From contig JAAVCK010000010.1 of the NCBI GenBank assembly GCA_014802325.1, forward strand, positions 62,001 to 126,000: a DNA stretch of 64,000 nucleotides, given 5' to 3'. The translations under genes and the position numbers were made by a program. Below the pieces are notes generated by a model. The model did no database searches and was not told the DNA's origin. It worked only from the letters and a program-made list of their open reading frames with translations. This stretch comes from Bacteroides sp. Lineage in GTDB: Bacteria; Bacteroidota; Bacteroidia; Bacteroidales; Muribaculaceae. Of this stretch, positions 32,642-62,125 are shown one piece after another; position 1 is the stretch's first letter, and every line of letters begins with the position of its first letter.

Positions 32642-32653
32642 ATCAATTTTTCT

Positions 32654-32820
32654 TAAGTAAGTTTCAGAAATTAGTTTATATATAAGATTCGTGATTGATA
32701 ATGATAAGATTTCAATTTAGGAGCATGGTGTTATGGGGTTCCATAATGACGTGTGAGTAAGTTGAAAGATTGCATTATCAAGCCGAAGATTGATATAAAC
32801 TAATTCTTGAAACTTACTTA
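32654..32820. mobile_element. 167-bp MITE-like element, copy 1
   Basis: It begins TAAGTAAGTTTCA and ends with the reverse complement; the terminal inverted repeats extend about 28 nt with two mismatches. Further inward TTGATAATG and CATTATCAA form a second pair. It has no coding frame. A second copy of exactly the same length lies inverted at 59019-59185, differing at only a few positions. It sits between mnmG (stop 2 bp away) and parS/apt. It looks like a non-autonomous transposable element; no matching transposase is in the window. Confidence 0.88.
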
Positions 32821-32822
32821 TA

Positions 32823-34703
32823 TTATCTACCCATAAGCAGGAGCAGTATATTGACATCAGCCGGGGAAATACCGGGTATTCGCGAGGCTTGTCCCACTGT
32901 CTCGGGATCGATTTTCTTGAGCTTCTGACGCGCTTCAGTCGATAGAGCCTTTATGGTGGAATAGTCAAGTTTACCTCGGATTTTCACTCCTTCGAGTCGA
33001 CGGAGCTTATCAGCTATCAGCTGCTCTCGCTTGATGTATCCCTCATATTTCATCAGCACTTCAGCAGCCTCGATTATCTCATCCCGACGTTCCGTCTCGA
33101 TATGGCTATCGATAAACTCACGGAACTCGGGGAGACCGGCCGAAAGCAATTCGAGATTGAGCGACGGCTGCAGCACGAGACTGATCAGCTTGACCCCTTG
33201 CTTTACCGGCCGGAGTCCGAGCTGCTCAAGGTAGGGATTGATCACCGAGGCCTTGACGGAATAATTGTGACAGAAGTTGATTATCGCATCGCGCTGCTCG
33301 CGCTTTGAGATCATGAGATCATAGCGGTGCTGATCTACCAACCCTACTTCATATCCGCGCGGTGTGAGTCGCATATCGGCATCATCCTGGCGAAGAAGTA
33401 TGCGGTATTCTGCACGCGACGTAAACATGCGATAAGGCTCGTCGACACCTTTGGTGACAAGATCATCTATCAGTACTCCGATATACGATTCATCTCGGCC
33501 GAGCACGAAGCGCTCATCTCCGCGGGTGGATAGTGCTGCATTGATTCCGGCAACAAGACCTTGCCCTGCGGCTTCCTCATATCCGGTGGTGCCGTTGACC
33601 TGACCGGCAAAAAACAGACCGGGTATCAACTTTGTTTCGAGCGAGTGATAAAGCTGGGTCGGATCAAAAAAGTCATATTCGATAGCATAGCCTGGACGAA
33701 ACAGCTGCACGTCGGCAAGGGCCGGAATAGTGGCAAGCGCGCGGAACTGCACATCTACTGGCAGCGAACTTGAGAAGCCGTTGAGATAGTATTCAGTCGT
33801 GGTCTCACCTTCCGGCTCAAGAAAGAGCTGATGTTCGTTTTTATCGGCAAAGGTCACTATCTTGGTTTCGATACTCGGACAGTAGCGCGGACCTATACTC
33901 TGTATCTGACCGTTGTAAAGCGGCGAGTCAGGAAGAGCCTTACGCAGTATCTCGTGAGCCTCGGGATTGGTATAAACCGTATGGCATGGACGCTGACGGA
34001 GCACGCGCTTCGATTCGGGAAGATATGAAAATTTGTGGAAGTCATTATCGCCCTCCTGAATAGTGGTCAACTCCCACTTTACCGAGCGGCCGTCGATGCG
34101 CACCGGTGTACCGGTCTTCATTCGGTCAGCGCGAAATCCGAGTTCTTTTAGCTGTTCGGTGATTCCTGTAGATGCTGGTTCGGCAACTCGACCGCCGGGA
34201 AGCTGCACACGGCCGGTGTGCATCAATCCATTGAGGAATGTTCCGGCAGTCATCACCACCGCATTTGCACGGAATTCAAGTCCGAGTGCGGTCTTCACTC
34301 CAGCCACACGGCCATCTTCAACAATAAGTCCGGTCACTGAGTCCTGCCACATCCACAGATGTGGGGTGTTTTCAAGAATACTGCGCCAGCGCAACGAAAA
34401 CGCCATACGGTCGCTCTGCGCACGCGGACTCCACATGGCAGGACCTTTGGAGCGGTTGAGCATTCTGAACTGAATAGCGGTAGCATCCGTCACAAGACCC
34501 ATCATACCGCCCAGTGCATCTATTTCTCTGACTATCTGCCCCTTGGCAATACCGCCAACGGCAGGATTGCAGCTCATCTGCGCAATCTTGTTCATATCGA
34601 TAGTGACGAGCAGCGTTTCGCAGCCCATCCGCGCTGATGCCGAGGCAGCTTCACATCCGGCATGTCCGGCGCCCACAACTATAACGTCGTAGCTGAATTT
34701 CAC
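32823..34703 (-). CDS. mnmG: tRNA uridine-5-carboxymethylaminomethyl modification enzyme MnmG
   Basis: A 626-residue FAD-dependent enzyme that, with MnmE, modifies U34 of several tRNAs. The N-terminal FAD motif is VVGAGHAGCEAA, followed by NPAVGGIAKGQIVREIDALGG, GPRYCPSIETKI and GQVNGTTGYEEAAGQG, all hallmarks of the family. The C-terminal helical domain ends SRIPGISPADVNILLLLMG. Full length. ybeY lies 45 nt upstream on the same strand. Its position next to parS fits an origin-near location. Confidence 0.97.
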   Translation of the reverse strand: MKFSYDVIVVGAGHAGCEAASASARMGCETLLVTIDMNKIAQMSCNPAVGGIAKGQIVREIDALGGMMGLVTDATAIQFRMLNRSKGPAMWSPRAQSDRMAFSLRWRSILENTPHLWMWQDSVTGLIVEDGRVAGVKTALGLEFRANAVVMTAGTFLNGLMHTGRVQLPGGRVAEPASTGITEQLKELGFRADRMKTGTPVRIDGRSVKWELTTIQEGDNDFHKFSYLPESKRVLRQRPCHTVYTNPEAHEILRKALPDSPLYNGQIQSIGPRYCPSIETKIVTFADKNEHQLFLEPEGETTTEYYLNGFSSSLPVDVQFRALATIPALADVQLFRPGYAIEYDFFDPTQLYHSLETKLIPGLFFAGQVNGTTGYEEAAGQGLVAGINAALSTRGDERFVLGRDESYIGVLIDDLVTKGVDEPYRMFTSRAEYRILLRQDDADMRLTPRGYEVGLVDQHRYDLMISKREQRDAIINFCHNYSVKASVINPYLEQLGLRPVKQGVKLISLVLQPSLNLELLSAGLPEFREFIDSHIETERRDEIIEAAEVLMKYEGYIKREQLIADKLRRLEGVKIRGKLDYSTIKALSTEARQKLKKIDPETVGQASRIPGISPADVNILLLLMGR

Positions 34704-58476: not shown

Positions 58477-58515
58477 ACTCACCCCCGTGAATAATCACTC
58501 ACCACGGGGGTGAGT
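58477..58515 (+). terminator. Rho-independent terminator after the MBL gene
   Basis: ACTCACCCCCGTG at 58477-58489 is perfectly complementary to 58503-58515 and is followed by TCTTTTTATT. Confidence 0.88.
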
Positions 58516-58587
58516 TCTTTTTATTACCACCTGCCACCGAAGAGGGGGGGACGGTGGTTATCGCATGCACCGGGCAGGAGGGGGACG

Positions 58588-58595
58588 TAACTTTG
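58588..58595 (+). promoter_or_regulatory. -7 element upstream of the holin-like gene
   Basis: TAACTTTG, 16 nt before the holin-like start. No good -33; the leader would be very short. Confidence 0.4.
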
Positions 58596-58611
58596 CGGGA
58601 AAAACACAGTA

Positions 58612-59025
58612 ATGGATTACGCTTATCATCATCTTATTCCGGCTCTGGTAGTGCTCGCGGTAGACTACTGCGGACTGCTTGTGGCCGTACTTGCCGACCT
58701 GGCGGCAGGTGTCAGCAAAGCTCGCAGGCGCGGAGAGCATCTGACATCAAAAGGGTTTCGCGCGTCGGTAGATAAATTTGCGCGCTATGTGCTGGCACTG
58801 TTTGGCATGACGGCCGCGGATGCCGTGATAATAGCCGTGGCAGCATGCCTTCAGTCGGGAGGCGACTTCGAGTCATTCACTCTGCTCCCCGTAGTGACCT
58901 CATGTGGCGCAGCAGCCATGTCGCTTATCGAAGTGAAGAGTATATTTGAGACCGAAGGTGAGAAAAATCCCGTCGACGAAGCGGCAGATATGCTCCGCAA
59001 ACTTATGGATATAATAAATAAGTAA
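58612..59025 (+). CDS. Phage holin-like membrane protein
   Basis: A 137-residue protein with three hydrophobic helices (about 8-30, 60-82 and 88-105) separated by a basic loop AAGVSKARRRGEHLTSKGFRASVDKF, the layout of phage lysis holins of the toxin-secretion/holin family. The tail is charged (FETEGEKNPVDEAADML). Its final codons, AAG and TAA, come from the terminus of the MITE-like repeat at 59019-59185, so the native end may have been a little different. It is the first of five phage-like genes on this strand. Confidence 0.68.
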   Translation: MDYAYHHLIPALVVLAVDYCGLLVAVLADLAAGVSKARRRGEHLTSKGFRASVDKFARYVLALFGMTAADAVIIAVAACLQSGGDFESFTLLPVVTSCGAAAMSLIEVKSIFETEGEKNPVDEAADMLRKLMDIINK

Positions 59026-59185
59026 GTTTCAAGAATTAGTTTATATCAATCTTCGGCTTGATAATGCAATCTTTCAACTTACTCACACGTCATTATGAAA
59101 CCACATAACTCCATGCTCCTAAATTAAAATCTTATCATTATCAATCACGAATCTTATATATAAACTAATTTCTGAAACTTACTTA
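59019..59185. mobile_element. 167-bp MITE-like element, copy 2 (inverted)
   Basis: Reverse complement of the element at 32654-32820 with the same length and only a handful of differences. The terminal repeats start TAAGTAAGTTTCA. It separates the holin-like gene from the next phage-like gene and supplies the holin stop codon. No clear target duplication is visible at either copy. Confidence 0.88.
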
Positions 59186-59197
59186 AGAATTAAATAC

Positions 59198-59767
59198 ATG
59201 AAACTCAGGCTTACTCAGGCGCAGATGAATGAGCGTTGGCTCGCTCTGCGCCGACTCAACACCATGCCGCTTGAGGCTGTGGTGAAGCGCAACGACGGTG
59301 TAGACATGGACATGATAGTGACCGAGGAGGTGAAGAAATGGTATTTCAACCTCCTTCTGAAGGCCGACGAAAGGATGCTCGTGACCCACGATATAGAAGA
59401 CGCCCTCGACGTGCGCCCCGACGGCAGAGGCGGGGCGGAAGTGGTGGTGCCTCCCGAGGTGGTGCGCATAATATCCGTAAGGATGAGGGGCTGGCACGCT
59501 CCGGCCCGGATAGTCCACGACAATGCCCTCACCGATAGCGCTCTGCACCGCCTGAGGATACGACAGGCGAGTCAGCTCACCATGTCAGGACCCGACAACC
59601 CCGTGGCCATGATGCACTCCAACGTGATACGCATCTATCCCTACATCGACGGCGACGAACTTCACACGCTGCGAGCGGTGGTGATGACCGACGATTTATA
59701 TGAATTTGACTCCTCAGCTCTAACTACCATTATAGAAGATGAACAGAAATATGACTTCACCATTTGA
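59198..59767 (+). CDS. Phage-associated small protein, unknown (possible head-tail adaptor)
   Basis: A 189-residue protein without signal or membrane segments. It has a helical N-terminus (LRLTQAQMNERWLALRRL) and a beta-rich middle and C-terminus (EVVVPPEVVRIISVRMRGWHAPARIV, NVIRIYPYIDGDELHTLRAVVMTDDLYEF). Its 29-nt overlap with the portal gene suggests a structural partner such as a head-tail adaptor, but there is no recognised motif. Base composition is like that of the host chromosome. Confidence 0.6.
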   Translation: MKLRLTQAQMNERWLALRRLNTMPLEAVVKRNDGVDMDMIVTEEVKKWYFNLLLKADERMLVTHDIEDALDVRPDGRGGAEVVVPPEVVRIISVRMRGWHAPARIVHDNALTDSALHRLRIRQASQLTMSGPDNPVAMMHSNVIRIYPYIDGDELHTLRAVVMTDDLYEFDSSALTTIIEDEQKYDFTI

Positions 59768-61052
59768 ACGCGCTCATGCAGCCTGGGAGGCGATGGCATC
59801 GCTGCGACGTGCACGCAATCTGCTTAAAGACTTCACTTACGGCGACCAATGGTCGTGGCCGGTGACCGATGCCTCGGGACGTGTGATGACCGAGGGCGAC
59901 GCCGTGCGTTCGCTCGGTAAGACTCCGCTTACCAACAATCTGCTTCGCTCGCTTGTGAAGAGCGTAGTAGGGCGTTTTCGCTATAATCTGGCACTTGAGC
60001 GTAAAAAAGGTTCGCCCGCGACCACCTATAACCGGCTCGACGAACTCGATGCGCGCACTCTTGAAGAATTTCTCATATCAGGCTGCGCCATACAGCGCGT
60101 AGTGGCCGAAAATCGTCCGGAAGGCTGCGGAGCATGGGCCGATAAAGTATCGCCGGCAATGTTTTTCTGCAATCCGTTTACTGACCCGCGCGGTACCGAC
60201 ATCGAACTTATAGGTATGCTTCACGAGATGGACTGCGAGCAGATGATAATGCGGTTCAGCCACGGCAACGCTCGCCGCGCCCGCTCCATTCGCGACACCT
60301 GGCGACGCAATCATCGCGAAGGCGACGCCGTGACCGACTTCAGCAGCAGACCGGGAGGATTTTTCAATGCCACGCGCGAAGGTAAATGCCGTGTGATAGA
60401 AGTGTGGACTCTCGATTACGAAGGCAACCGCCGGGCCGGCCTAACCTCTACATCATACAAAGTGGCCTGGCATTGCCGCTTTTATGCGCCGTGCGGCACA
60501 CTACTCGACCACACTGTGTCGCCCTACGCCGACGGCTCGCACCCGTTTGTAGTGAAATTCTATCCGCTGACCGACGGCGAGGTACATCCTTTTATCGAGG
60601 ATATCGTGGAACAGCAGCGCCACATCAACCGCCTGATCACCATGATAGACCATGTGCTGGCCGTGTCGGCCAAGGGCGTGCTGCTCTATCCGCTCGAAGC
60701 GCAACCCGACGGATTTTCCATAGCCGATGCTGTGGCTCTGTGGAACCGACCGGGAGGGGTGATACCTATCGACGGCACGGCAGGACGAATACCCACGCAG
60801 CTCAACTCCGAGGCATCGACCGACAATGCAGCCCGCCTGCTCGACATAGAGATGAACATGATGAGGCAGATATCAGGTGTGTCGGCGGCTCTGCAGGGAC
60901 AGACTTCCATGGCCAATCAGTCGGCCACCATGTTTGAAAGTCAGATACAGAATTCGGCCATAGCTCTGCTGGACATATTCGACACGTTCAACACATTCCG
61001 CGCCATACGCGACGAAAAACTGACTCAATGTGACAGCATAATTCCGCGTTAA
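59739..61052 (+). CDS. Phage portal-like protein
   Basis: A 437-residue protein that resembles portals of tailed phages, especially the P22-like type: an N-terminal helical part with FTYGDQWSW, the region TPLTNNLLRSLVKSVVGRFRYN, VSPAMFFCNPFTDPRGTDIELIGMLHEM, the long stem helix EDIVEQQRHINRLITMIDHVL, and a C-terminal MRQISGVSAALQGQ followed by QSATMFESQIQNSAIALLDIFDTFN, the typical clip/crown area. Length is at the short end for portals. No terminase, protease, capsid or tail gene is near, so it is either a remnant or a recruited protein. Identified by pattern only. Confidence 0.68.
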   Translation: MNRNMTSPFERAHAAWEAMASLRRARNLLKDFTYGDQWSWPVTDASGRVMTEGDAVRSLGKTPLTNNLLRSLVKSVVGRFRYNLALERKKGSPATTYNRLDELDARTLEEFLISGCAIQRVVAENRPEGCGAWADKVSPAMFFCNPFTDPRGTDIELIGMLHEMDCEQMIMRFSHGNARRARSIRDTWRRNHREGDAVTDFSSRPGGFFNATREGKCRVIEVWTLDYEGNRRAGLTSTSYKVAWHCRFYAPCGTLLDHTVSPYADGSHPFVVKFYPLTDGEVHPFIEDIVEQQRHINRLITMIDHVLAVSAKGVLLYPLEAQPDGFSIADAVALWNRPGGVIPIDGTAGRIPTQLNSEASTDNAARLLDIEMNMMRQISGVSAALQGQTSMANQSATMFESQIQNSAIALLDIFDTFNTFRAIRDEKLTQCDSIIPR

Positions 61053-61097
61053 CAGCTATTAACATCGCAGTATGGTTATTTAGCCCATGTATCGTGG

Positions 61098-61105
61098 TAT
61101 ATTTG
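61098..61105 (+). promoter_or_regulatory. -7 element before the 61147 gene, bracketed by a short inverted repeat
   Basis: TATATTTG lies between GGTTATTT at 61074-61081 and AAATAACC at 61119-61126, an 8-bp inverted repeat. This indicates a separate promoter for the last two genes of the phage-like group. Confidence 0.45.
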
Positions 61106-61146
61106 CAACGTTAATAGTAAATAACCAAACCTAAATCTTATTCTAT

Positions 61147-61512
61147 ATGCTTGAACAAATTGAACGCCGCAACCGAGACTTTGCACGCCGGTGCAAGGAA
61201 ATCATGGAGCTCAACCATGCGCCTGAGACGCTCACCTCACTTGCCACACGCGCCGCCGAGTCAGAAGCTCCATGCTATTACGTGAGTTATGATATGGCCG
61301 TACGCACGGTGCGTGAATACCGTAGGGGAGAGCTCGCCACCATCAGCCCCCTGCGACGCGCCATGTGGGAAGAAATAAGCCGCAAGGTGGCCGCTTTCGA
61401 GCAACGCGGCTACGGCTATCACAGAGCAGTGGAGACAGTGTTGCGCACGGCCACAGCTTCGAGTTTCTTCATCAGTCCTGTCACTGCCCGACATATAGCA
61501 GCCAAAATATGA
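61147..61512 (+). CDS. Small helical protein of unknown function
   Basis: A 121-residue, mostly helical, positively charged protein (RNRDFARRCKEIMELNH, MAVRTVREYRRGE, LRRAMWEEISRKVAAFEQRG). No signal peptide or membrane segment and no family recognised. It has its own -7 element and lies between the portal-like gene and another small gene, 15 nt before the latter. The same strand and spacing tie it to the phage-like group, though its promoter suggests it can be expressed on its own. Confidence 0.62.
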   Translation: MLEQIERRNRDFARRCKEIMELNHAPETLTSLATRAAESEAPCYYVSYDMAVRTVREYRRGELATISPLRRAMWEEISRKVAAFEQRGYGYHRAVETVLRTATASSFFISPVTARHIAAKI

Positions 61513-61527
61513 TAATCAATTCTTACT

Positions 61528-62007
61528 ATGAACTACACACTTTTCACGGAGAAAATACTCTCCATAGCCCGTTCGCTCGCCGCCATGCAGCTGCTTGCCG
61601 ACCATGACGGCGACGGCGACGGACCGCATCCCCTCACTCCGCTACTCGACGATTTCCGCAAACCGGTCGTAAGGCAGCTCATGCTTCAGGCATATATCGA
61701 CATGACTCTGAACCTGCGCCGCTATATCGACGATGCTTATATACCGGAGCCTGACAGTGAGTTCGATCGATTTACACTCAGCATTATCACCCCGTCGGGT
61801 TTTGGCAGCGTTGAGGCCGATCTGCTGCTCGCGGCCATGGCGCAATTCATAGCTTTGAGCACAGCAGCCGCGGTATTACGCTCGTGGCATCCTGACGATC
61901 TCAGACCTGCCGAAGCATTCTCCACACTCGCCGCCGAGTATCTCGCCAAAGCGCTTTCACTCCTCTCGCCACAGATTCCAAGAGCCATCACCCCGTGCTT
62001 CGGGTAG
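61528..62007 (+). CDS. Small protein of unknown function
   Basis: A 159-residue protein with helices around an acidic DHDGDGDGPH loop at about 25-34, then RRYIDDAYIPEPDSEFDRF and a hydrophobic helix ADLLLAAMAQFIALSTAAAVL. No family recognised. The DGDGDG stretch resembles a calcium-binding loop, but one loop alone is weak evidence. It ends the phage-like group, before the terminator at 62036-62078. Confidence 0.62.
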   Translation: MNYTLFTEKILSIARSLAAMQLLADHDGDGDGPHPLTPLLDDFRKPVVRQLMLQAYIDMTLNLRRYIDDAYIPEPDSEFDRFTLSIITPSGFGSVEADLLLAAMAQFIALSTAAAVLRSWHPDDLRPAEAFSTLAAEYLAKALSLLSPQIPRAITPCFG

Positions 62008-62035
62008 TAAAAATTAACCCGTTGTATATTATATA

Positions 62036-62078
62036 AACCCTGAATGGATAACTCACTCGCGCTAGTCCATTCAGGGTT
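62036..62078. terminator. Terminator between the phage-like group and meaB
   Basis: AACCCTGAATGGA at 62036-62048 is perfectly complementary to 62066-62078, a 13-bp stem between convergent genes, so it may work in both directions. Confidence 0.75.
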
Positions 62079-62125
62079 GATATTCAGTGGTATTTCTATG
62101 TAGCCTTCGTAGGAAAGGTTACACT

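Follow-up and report, generated by a model that had tools for sequence, protein, structure and literature searches.

Gene transfer agents (GTAs) are made from domesticated phage particle genes that lie in several dispersed operons, without replication genes. Few lineages are known. The first to come from the human gut, found in Faecalibacterium (FpGTA), was reported in 2026 (PMC12946183). Here, we analyzed a stretch of 64,000 nucleotides, hereafter the window, from a Bacteroides sp. of the Muribaculaceae (assembly GCA_014802325.1, contig JAAVCK010000010.1, positions 62,001 to 126,000; genome G000). It contains five genes encoding a holin-like membrane protein (g1), an adaptor-position protein (g2), a portal (g3), and two further proteins (g4 and g5). 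We consider it likely that at least five loci, of which this group is one, jointly encode a domesticated, GTA-like phage particle of the Muribaculaceae and related Bacteroidales. Below, G, C, L, and f number genomes, contigs, loci, and families, and g223 is a genus.

The agents of Alphaproteobacteria (RcGTA, CcGTA, and BaGTA) likewise consist of dispersed domesticated particle genes, but they belong to another phylum and descend from another phage ancestor, the portal being of the P22 type and the capsid of the SU10 type in our case. The Muribaculaceae set also differs from them in having no recognized tail genes and a promoter type common to its units. FpGTA resembles it in coming from a gut bacterium and in having no visible tail. 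Its small and large terminases (TerS and TerL), portal, scaffold, and capsid are encoded in one operon and its holin and endolysin in another (the two operons measure 10.5 and 5.5 kb), and its particles were seen by microscopy and proteomics (PMC12946183). In contrast, the present set is found in Bacteroidota rather than Bacillota, is spread over at least five loci in G000, and is described here from its genes. The closest phage records that we found are the temperate Bacteroides phages BS-TP4 (PQ571277), BF1-TP2 (PQ571263), and BKO1-TP3 (PQ571269), to which the major capsid protein (MCP) and portal of G032 are 39-41% and 32-35% identical. These phages have homologs of the TerL, g4, adaptor, and t1 families (t1 being a protein of about 830 aa), but they differ in having genomes of 64-68 kb. 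BS-TP4 and BF1-TP2 also have portal, TerL, and capsid genes within 8 kb, portals of 657 and 622 aa, and an annotated integrase; replication genes are annotated in BS-TP4. Our literature search turned up no GTA described from Bacteroidota; it could not reach the bulk of subscription papers and preprints, and an earlier description is possible. GTA-like packaging is described in Bacillota and lateral transduction in Bacteroides (PMC12946183).

The 437-aa product of g3 is a portal, as the initial annotation had proposed. It matches Pfam P22_portal (E = 1.5e-14) and the PHROG portal profile phrog_156 (9.9e-31, profile positions 111-446 of 681), and with a score above the curated cut-off and a portal fold it belongs to the P22-type portal family (PF16510); a phmmer search of the PDB returned nothing at 0.01. 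The protein lacks roughly the C-terminal 180 aa of related phage portals. The portals of G007 and G021 were left out of the length statistic, and the frames of G025 lie outside the portal cluster. Prophage portals (L056, L057, L059, and L060) and portal L055 were excluded from the family sets. The family profile of g2 matches the adaptor-position protein of BF1-TP2 (2.5e-10) and, weakly, that of BS-TP4 (0.0015). A homolog of g4 lies upstream of TerL, on the same strand, in six phage-type contigs (L104-L109), overlapping it in L104; we therefore propose, from homology and position, that g4 is a candidate small terminase. For g5 there was no Pfam, PHROG, or NCBIfam match, and its profile hits two BS-TP4 proteins weakly (E = 0.0075 and 0.0089). 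Finally, g1 matches PHROG_20732, a family of unknown function (2e-19), and Phage_holin_4_1 below its cut-off; its homologs elsewhere in G007 and G014 (38-43% identical) lie behind the shared promoter type described below.

The initial annotation depicted the group as isolated. The local lack of capsid and terminase genes is real, since the copies of G000 lie outside the window, but the group does not stand alone: a capsid gene, a terminase gene, a further structural gene, and an endolysin gene are found elsewhere in the genome. Because capsid and terminase are encoded in the same genome, we reject the suggestion that the portal was kept alone as a pore, whereas the companion suggestion of a packaging-like device used by the host is probably right. 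The SU10-type capsid protein (about 425 aa, with a short scaffold-like gene 5' of it) precedes the adaptor gene in several other genera and stands apart in Duncaniella; in G000 its gene is at C10:46128-47339, 75 kb from the portal. The G000 copy was placed by profile A1 (9.9e-155), and the curated cut-off of SU10_MCP (PF17236) was exceeded by two capsids of the family, those of G032 (L047, 4.5e-50) and G035 (L053, 1e-48). In other genera, the gene that precedes the adaptor gene was initially taken for a terminase; reading and Pfam identify it as the capsid protein. The short open reading frame (ORF) before the G000 capsid gene ends in RRSVWDL, as does the phage-like 251-aa scaffold of G057, and we call it scaffold-like from this shared ending and its position. 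In G002, the gene after the capsid (L094:9622-10071) matches gp48 of BS-TP4, annotated as DUF4494, at 7e-55.

The large terminase of G000 (C14:93349-94956) is distinct from the prophage copies, and its profile matches T4 gp17 at 2e-12. The t1 gene, whose profile matches gp26 of BS-TP4 (E = 3e-16), is next to TerL in 15 of 20 loci and, in a second set of 64 loci that partly overlaps the first, directly upstream of it in 38; in G000 it is on another contig (C5:42693-45056). The large gene beside TerL in G000 and G005 reads as a glycosidase. The amidase endolysin of G000 is at C4:35591-35977, and endolysin genes follow g5 in G013 and TerL in L251. A separate observation concerns G009, where six equal-scoring 217-aa frames with an amidase match lie on C1, C2, and C5, perhaps as a multicopy mobile element. 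In G000, C4, C5, and C14 each carry one locus and C10 carries two, separated by 75 kb; the surrounding genes read as host genes. Portal, terminase, and capsid are not adjacent in one insertion, as they would be in an intact or recently decayed prophage.

Other genomes show a range from compact to dispersed arrangements. The order adaptor-portal-g4-g5 recurs in relatives, and in 16 of 25 other loci of the genus the group occupies a single site, between genes reading as bioB/thiF/metE-like and DUF4271/hemD; in G000, G005, and G018 it lies beside meaB. G165 has eight genes in 10.5 kb, t1-TerL-scaffold-MCP-adaptor-portal-g4-g5 (L316:8137-18644). Partial sets include g4-g5-t1-TerL (L239 and L244), t1-TerL-g4-g5 in Heminiphilus faecis (L297), and an adaptor-TerL pair beside tatD/rnpA/hemD-like genes in G030. 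Three IMG/VR contigs carry TerL-MCP-adaptor-portal: L101 also has g4-g5, L102 has t1 and a part of g4 in addition, and L103 has these four genes only; they are classed as viral and resemble Muribaculaceae particle clusters. Portal, capsid, and TerL genes are at 1.15, 1.40, and 1.43 Mb in the single contig of G290, at 0.50, 0.84, and 0.93 Mb on one contig of G344, and all within 47 kb in the single contig of G262, while G101 has TerL and portal 3 kb apart and the capsid on another contig. In Muribaculaceae genomes assembled as a single contig, TerL and capsid are 957 kb (G509) or 48 kb (G493) apart; the prophage-type set of G162 (C32) has portal, capsid, and TerL within 7 kb. Dispersed in G000 and unlinked in G290 and G509, the gene set is unable to transmit itself as a unit, the less dispersed exceptions being G262 and G165.

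Units that lie apart have a promoter type in common. The G000 units share its -7 element and an upstream ATCGC element, and in relatives it often takes the form TTATCGCAC-N22-TAAYTTTGC before scaffold-capsid, t1-TerL, and adaptor-portal. In the 64-kb window there is only one site, before g1 (at most two mismatches). With the same tolerance, the 1.18 Mb of fetched loci gave 45 sites, and the reversed control 0. Of these, 37 fall in the intervals before capsid (15), t1 (6), and adaptor (16) genes, which cover about 3% of the sequence, and two of the remaining eight precede the TerL of G000 and G005. Leaving out units with too little upstream sequence, a site was present in 13 of 25 MCP, 6 of 13 t1, and 16 of 29 adaptor units. 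The pattern ATCGCA-N22-24-TANNTTTGC had 338 matches in 35 genomes (reversed control, 1); this exact pattern occurs in 24 of 25 Duncaniella genomes and 5 of 10 others. Among 20 endolysin loci fetched from the genus, nine have the pattern, six have a TTTGT variant (by eye), and five have neither. Other sites, among the matches listed, precede two g1 homologs, endolysins, and a multicopy family (one member weakly DUF6291), and some precede gyrA, an aldolase, and a transporter, possibly by chance. We conclude that this promoter type is real and that it also has targets beyond the particle genes. Its presence at structural, holin, and endolysin genes could coordinate their expression with lysis. 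The sequence also supports the separate promoter that had been proposed for g4 and g5 (Table 1), since 21 of the 22 rows from relatives have TAnnTTTGC close to where g4 starts; it is conserved and of another type than the shared promoter. Two side observations concern the shared type: similar small proteins lie behind it in L319 (weakly DUF6291), L322, L324, L325, L331, L332, L334, and L335, five of them in G014, and so does an AAA_25 ATPase with a helix-turn-helix end (L333:2461-3678, G014), possibly a regulator or replication protein.

The set is neither rare nor strain specific. In the genus, the portal is found in 26 of 27 genomes and the capsid protein in all 27 (in pieces or partial in G012, G024, and G026), which rules out a strain-specific remnant. 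A domesticated-type TerL is present in 24 of them, plus one fragment, t1 in 24, and an endolysin match in 25. Ten other genera of the family were examined, and all have the portal, nine the capsid, and eight each TerL and t1 (for TerL and t1, prophage copies were set aside by reading). Among 137 genomes of the family (G000 and others at least 95% complete), the capsid reads as the domesticated type in 102 of the 111 outside g223. Some TerL match was found in 130 of the 137, and we claim no prevalence beyond this because bit scores do not cleanly separate domesticated from prophage TerL. Within g223 (G462-G487), a prophage-type capsid or none was found in 18 genomes. Among 392 Bacteroidales genomes (G000 plus others with a completeness of at least 90%), the TerL profile found a match in 36 and a strong one in 30; all 36 belong to the family of G000 or to f22, f28, f58, f65, f84, or f103. 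All 20 genomes tested from the six further families have capsid and portal matches (E of 1e-181 or better and 2e-190 or better, respectively), with portal frames of 622-724 aa. Muribaculaceae-type terminases also occur in records titled Desulfovibrio, Pseudoflavonifractor, Clostridiales, or Paenibacillus (L230, L247, L269, and L295); these titles are probably wrong.

The genes are also constrained. All five ORFs of the group are intact, as the initial annotation had reported, and the ratio of nonsynonymous to synonymous substitutions (dN/dS) is 0.03-0.21 for seven genes among G000, G005, and G018, values that are rough, since a simple counting method was used and dS is often near or above 1. 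Comparing G000 with G018 and G005, it is 0.07 for the portal, 0.05-0.06 for the MCP, 0.09 for TerL, 0.03-0.05 for g4, 0.14-0.16 for the adaptor, and 0.19-0.21 for g5; that of t1 is 0.14 (G000 versus G005 only) and that of the control meaB 0.03. The motor and nuclease motifs of TerL are intact in every one of the 29 full-length sequences aligned, of which 28 come from the family and one from f22. The set has phage-derived genes for head and packaging, as a GTA would. The TerL tree places 38 domesticated TerLs, two of them from IMG/VR contigs and 36 from genomes of seven families, in a single clade (support 1.0) that excludes 10 phage or prophage TerLs. The distances of portal, MCP, and TerL are correlated, both among the three genes (rho 0.57-0.82) and with those of two chromosomal genes (rho 0.56-0.80), with 0 of 500 permutations reaching these values in each case. 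The set thus shows vertical inheritance and purifying selection, with exceptions in G002, G003, G007, G025, G031, and g223. Very recent decay does not fit these data, and retention by the host, the other guess made at the outset, does.

Several observations weigh against a GTA-like particle. Despite the wide conservation, some relatives have broken genes: the portal is split into two frames in G007 and G025 and its match in G021 has one in-frame stop, the capsid gene is in pieces in G491, G497, G520, and G522, and the TerL of G002 is a C-terminal fragment. Pairs with G002 have higher dN/dS (0.38-0.61 for g4 and 0.21-0.41 for t1, with dS near saturation). Neither TerL nor t1 was found in G003 or G031, both rated 99% complete, no further search for a lost or unassembled TerL having been made, and in G006 nothing but prophage-type copies was found. 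Within g223, the domesticated capsid type is present in just 8 of 26 genomes, whose TerL match covers the motor part only (frames of 314-554 aa), and the system in this genus seems to be decaying or changing. As for the promoter, the exact pattern is absent from 5 of the 10 other-genus genomes, including G165 with its compact cluster, it has 0-35 sites per genome, also before other genes, and at the threshold used a site is missing from about half of the units. Finally, our picture of the particle system is drawn entirely from gene sequences. The split portals, the TerL fragment, the missing TerLs, and the decay in g223, together with the shortening of the portal and of the scaffold-like gene, would suit an ancient prophage that has been decaying slowly, with remaining genes that were scattered by rearrangement and have no function now. 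We find this very unlikely: it is at odds with the low dN/dS of seven genes among close relatives, with the motifs intact in every full-length TerL aligned, with retention across this family and six others, and with one promoter type common to unlinked loci. A capsid-derived compartment or satellite-like element, with the shell used otherwise than for packaging host DNA, could explain why G003 and G031 keep capsid and portal and why eight g223 genomes have motor-only terminases. This alternative is hardly credible, as motor and nuclease are kept in most carriers examined, and the loci are unlinked in Duncaniella, which means that they cannot enter one particle together. We noticed no integrase next to any of the loci, although no systematic search for one was made.

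If the particle is indeed GTA-like, we infer that its capsids would assemble when the shared promoter type is switched on. The terminase, with g4 acting as its small subunit, would then feed host chromosomal DNA by the headful through the shortened portal, and the holin and amidase would lyse the cell and release the particles. Of all these steps, delivery to recipient cells is the one we are least sure of. The adaptor and t1 are present as possible delivery parts, but no tail or receptor-binding gene was recognized when phage proteins were used as queries, a search confined to the fetched loci, and this also weighs against a GTA. In L182, L303, and L306 (f22 and f103), a separate locus has a gp70-like gene, a small gene, and a gene of 460-864 aa, possibly ejection proteins kept in deeper families. 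PBSX of Bacillus subtilis is a defective prophage that acts like a bacteriocin and is not known to be dispersed. It shows GTA-like packaging of random host DNA (PMC7667829), which it does not deliver (PMC7667829, PMC12946183). The Muribaculaceae particle could similarly package DNA and lyse the cell without gene delivery, as a means of killing or competition. The presence of TerL, capsid, and lysis genes would agree with this, as would the lack of a recognized receptor-binding gene, the gp70-like gene being seen only in deeper families. However, tailocin-type tail genes were not recognized either, and a short tail may consist of unrecognized proteins, possibly t1; such a particle seems to us unlikely. 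Extending the GTA-like reading further, the system could be a GTA older than the Muribaculaceae and common to six further Bacteroidales families, with structural, packaging, and lysis genes that are scattered and yet largely held in one regulon by a dedicated promoter type, and it could move chromosomal DNA between bacteria that are among the most common in the mouse gut. We put this forward tentatively, as a plausible proposal.

The features of the group are given in Table 1. Its neighbors are ordinary genes, in line with the housekeeping setting initially described: MBL fold, DsbA, MarR, and MeaB (Pfam) and a MATE transporter (by reading). The G+C content of the group is host-like except in the A+T-rich spacer between g1 and g2, which corresponds to a repeat resembling a miniature inverted-repeat transposable element (MITE). 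This element (about 177-195 bp) has a second copy at 32650-32826, 97% identical and in the opposite orientation.

Table 1. Features of the five-gene group and its borders (window coordinates)
Feature	Position	Strand	Remarks
Inverted repeat, terminator-like	58477..58515		3' of the upstream MBL-fold gene; left edge of the unit
Shared promoter type, TTATCGCAT-N21-TAACTTTGC	58557..58596	+	Upstream of g1; -7 element at about 58588-58595
g1, holin-like membrane protein, 137 aa	58612..59025	+	Profile matches
MITE-like element, 42-nt inverted repeats	59005..59199		Between g1 and the adaptor gene
g2, adaptor-position protein, 189 aa	59198..59767	+	Family matches phage BF1-TP2 gp54
g3, portal, 437 aa	59739..61052	+	Pfam and PHROG matches
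Inverted repeat around the separate g4-g5 promoter	61070..61130		TATATTTG at 61098-61105
g4, candidate small terminase, 121 aa	61147..61512	+	Phage homologs of the family lie upstream of the large terminase gene
g5, conserved partner of g4, 159 aa	61528..62007	+	Weak profile match to BS-TP4 gp24/gp25
Inverted repeat, terminator-like	62031..62083		Between g5 and the convergent meaB

A study of the mouse gut found 46 contigs with patterns of generalized transduction or GTAs, and 83 contigs with transduction patterns were Bacteroidetes; the accessible part of that study makes no link to Muribaculaceae (PMC7667829). Prophage detection based on gene clusters would be expected to miss a system as dispersed as the one proposed here, and the shared promoter type offers a route to the missing genes and the regulator. 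If our interpretation is true, a GTA of the Muribaculaceae, a major group of the mouse gut, would provide a cultured and testable source of host-DNA particles in Bacteroidota, and it might account for some virus-like-particle signals.

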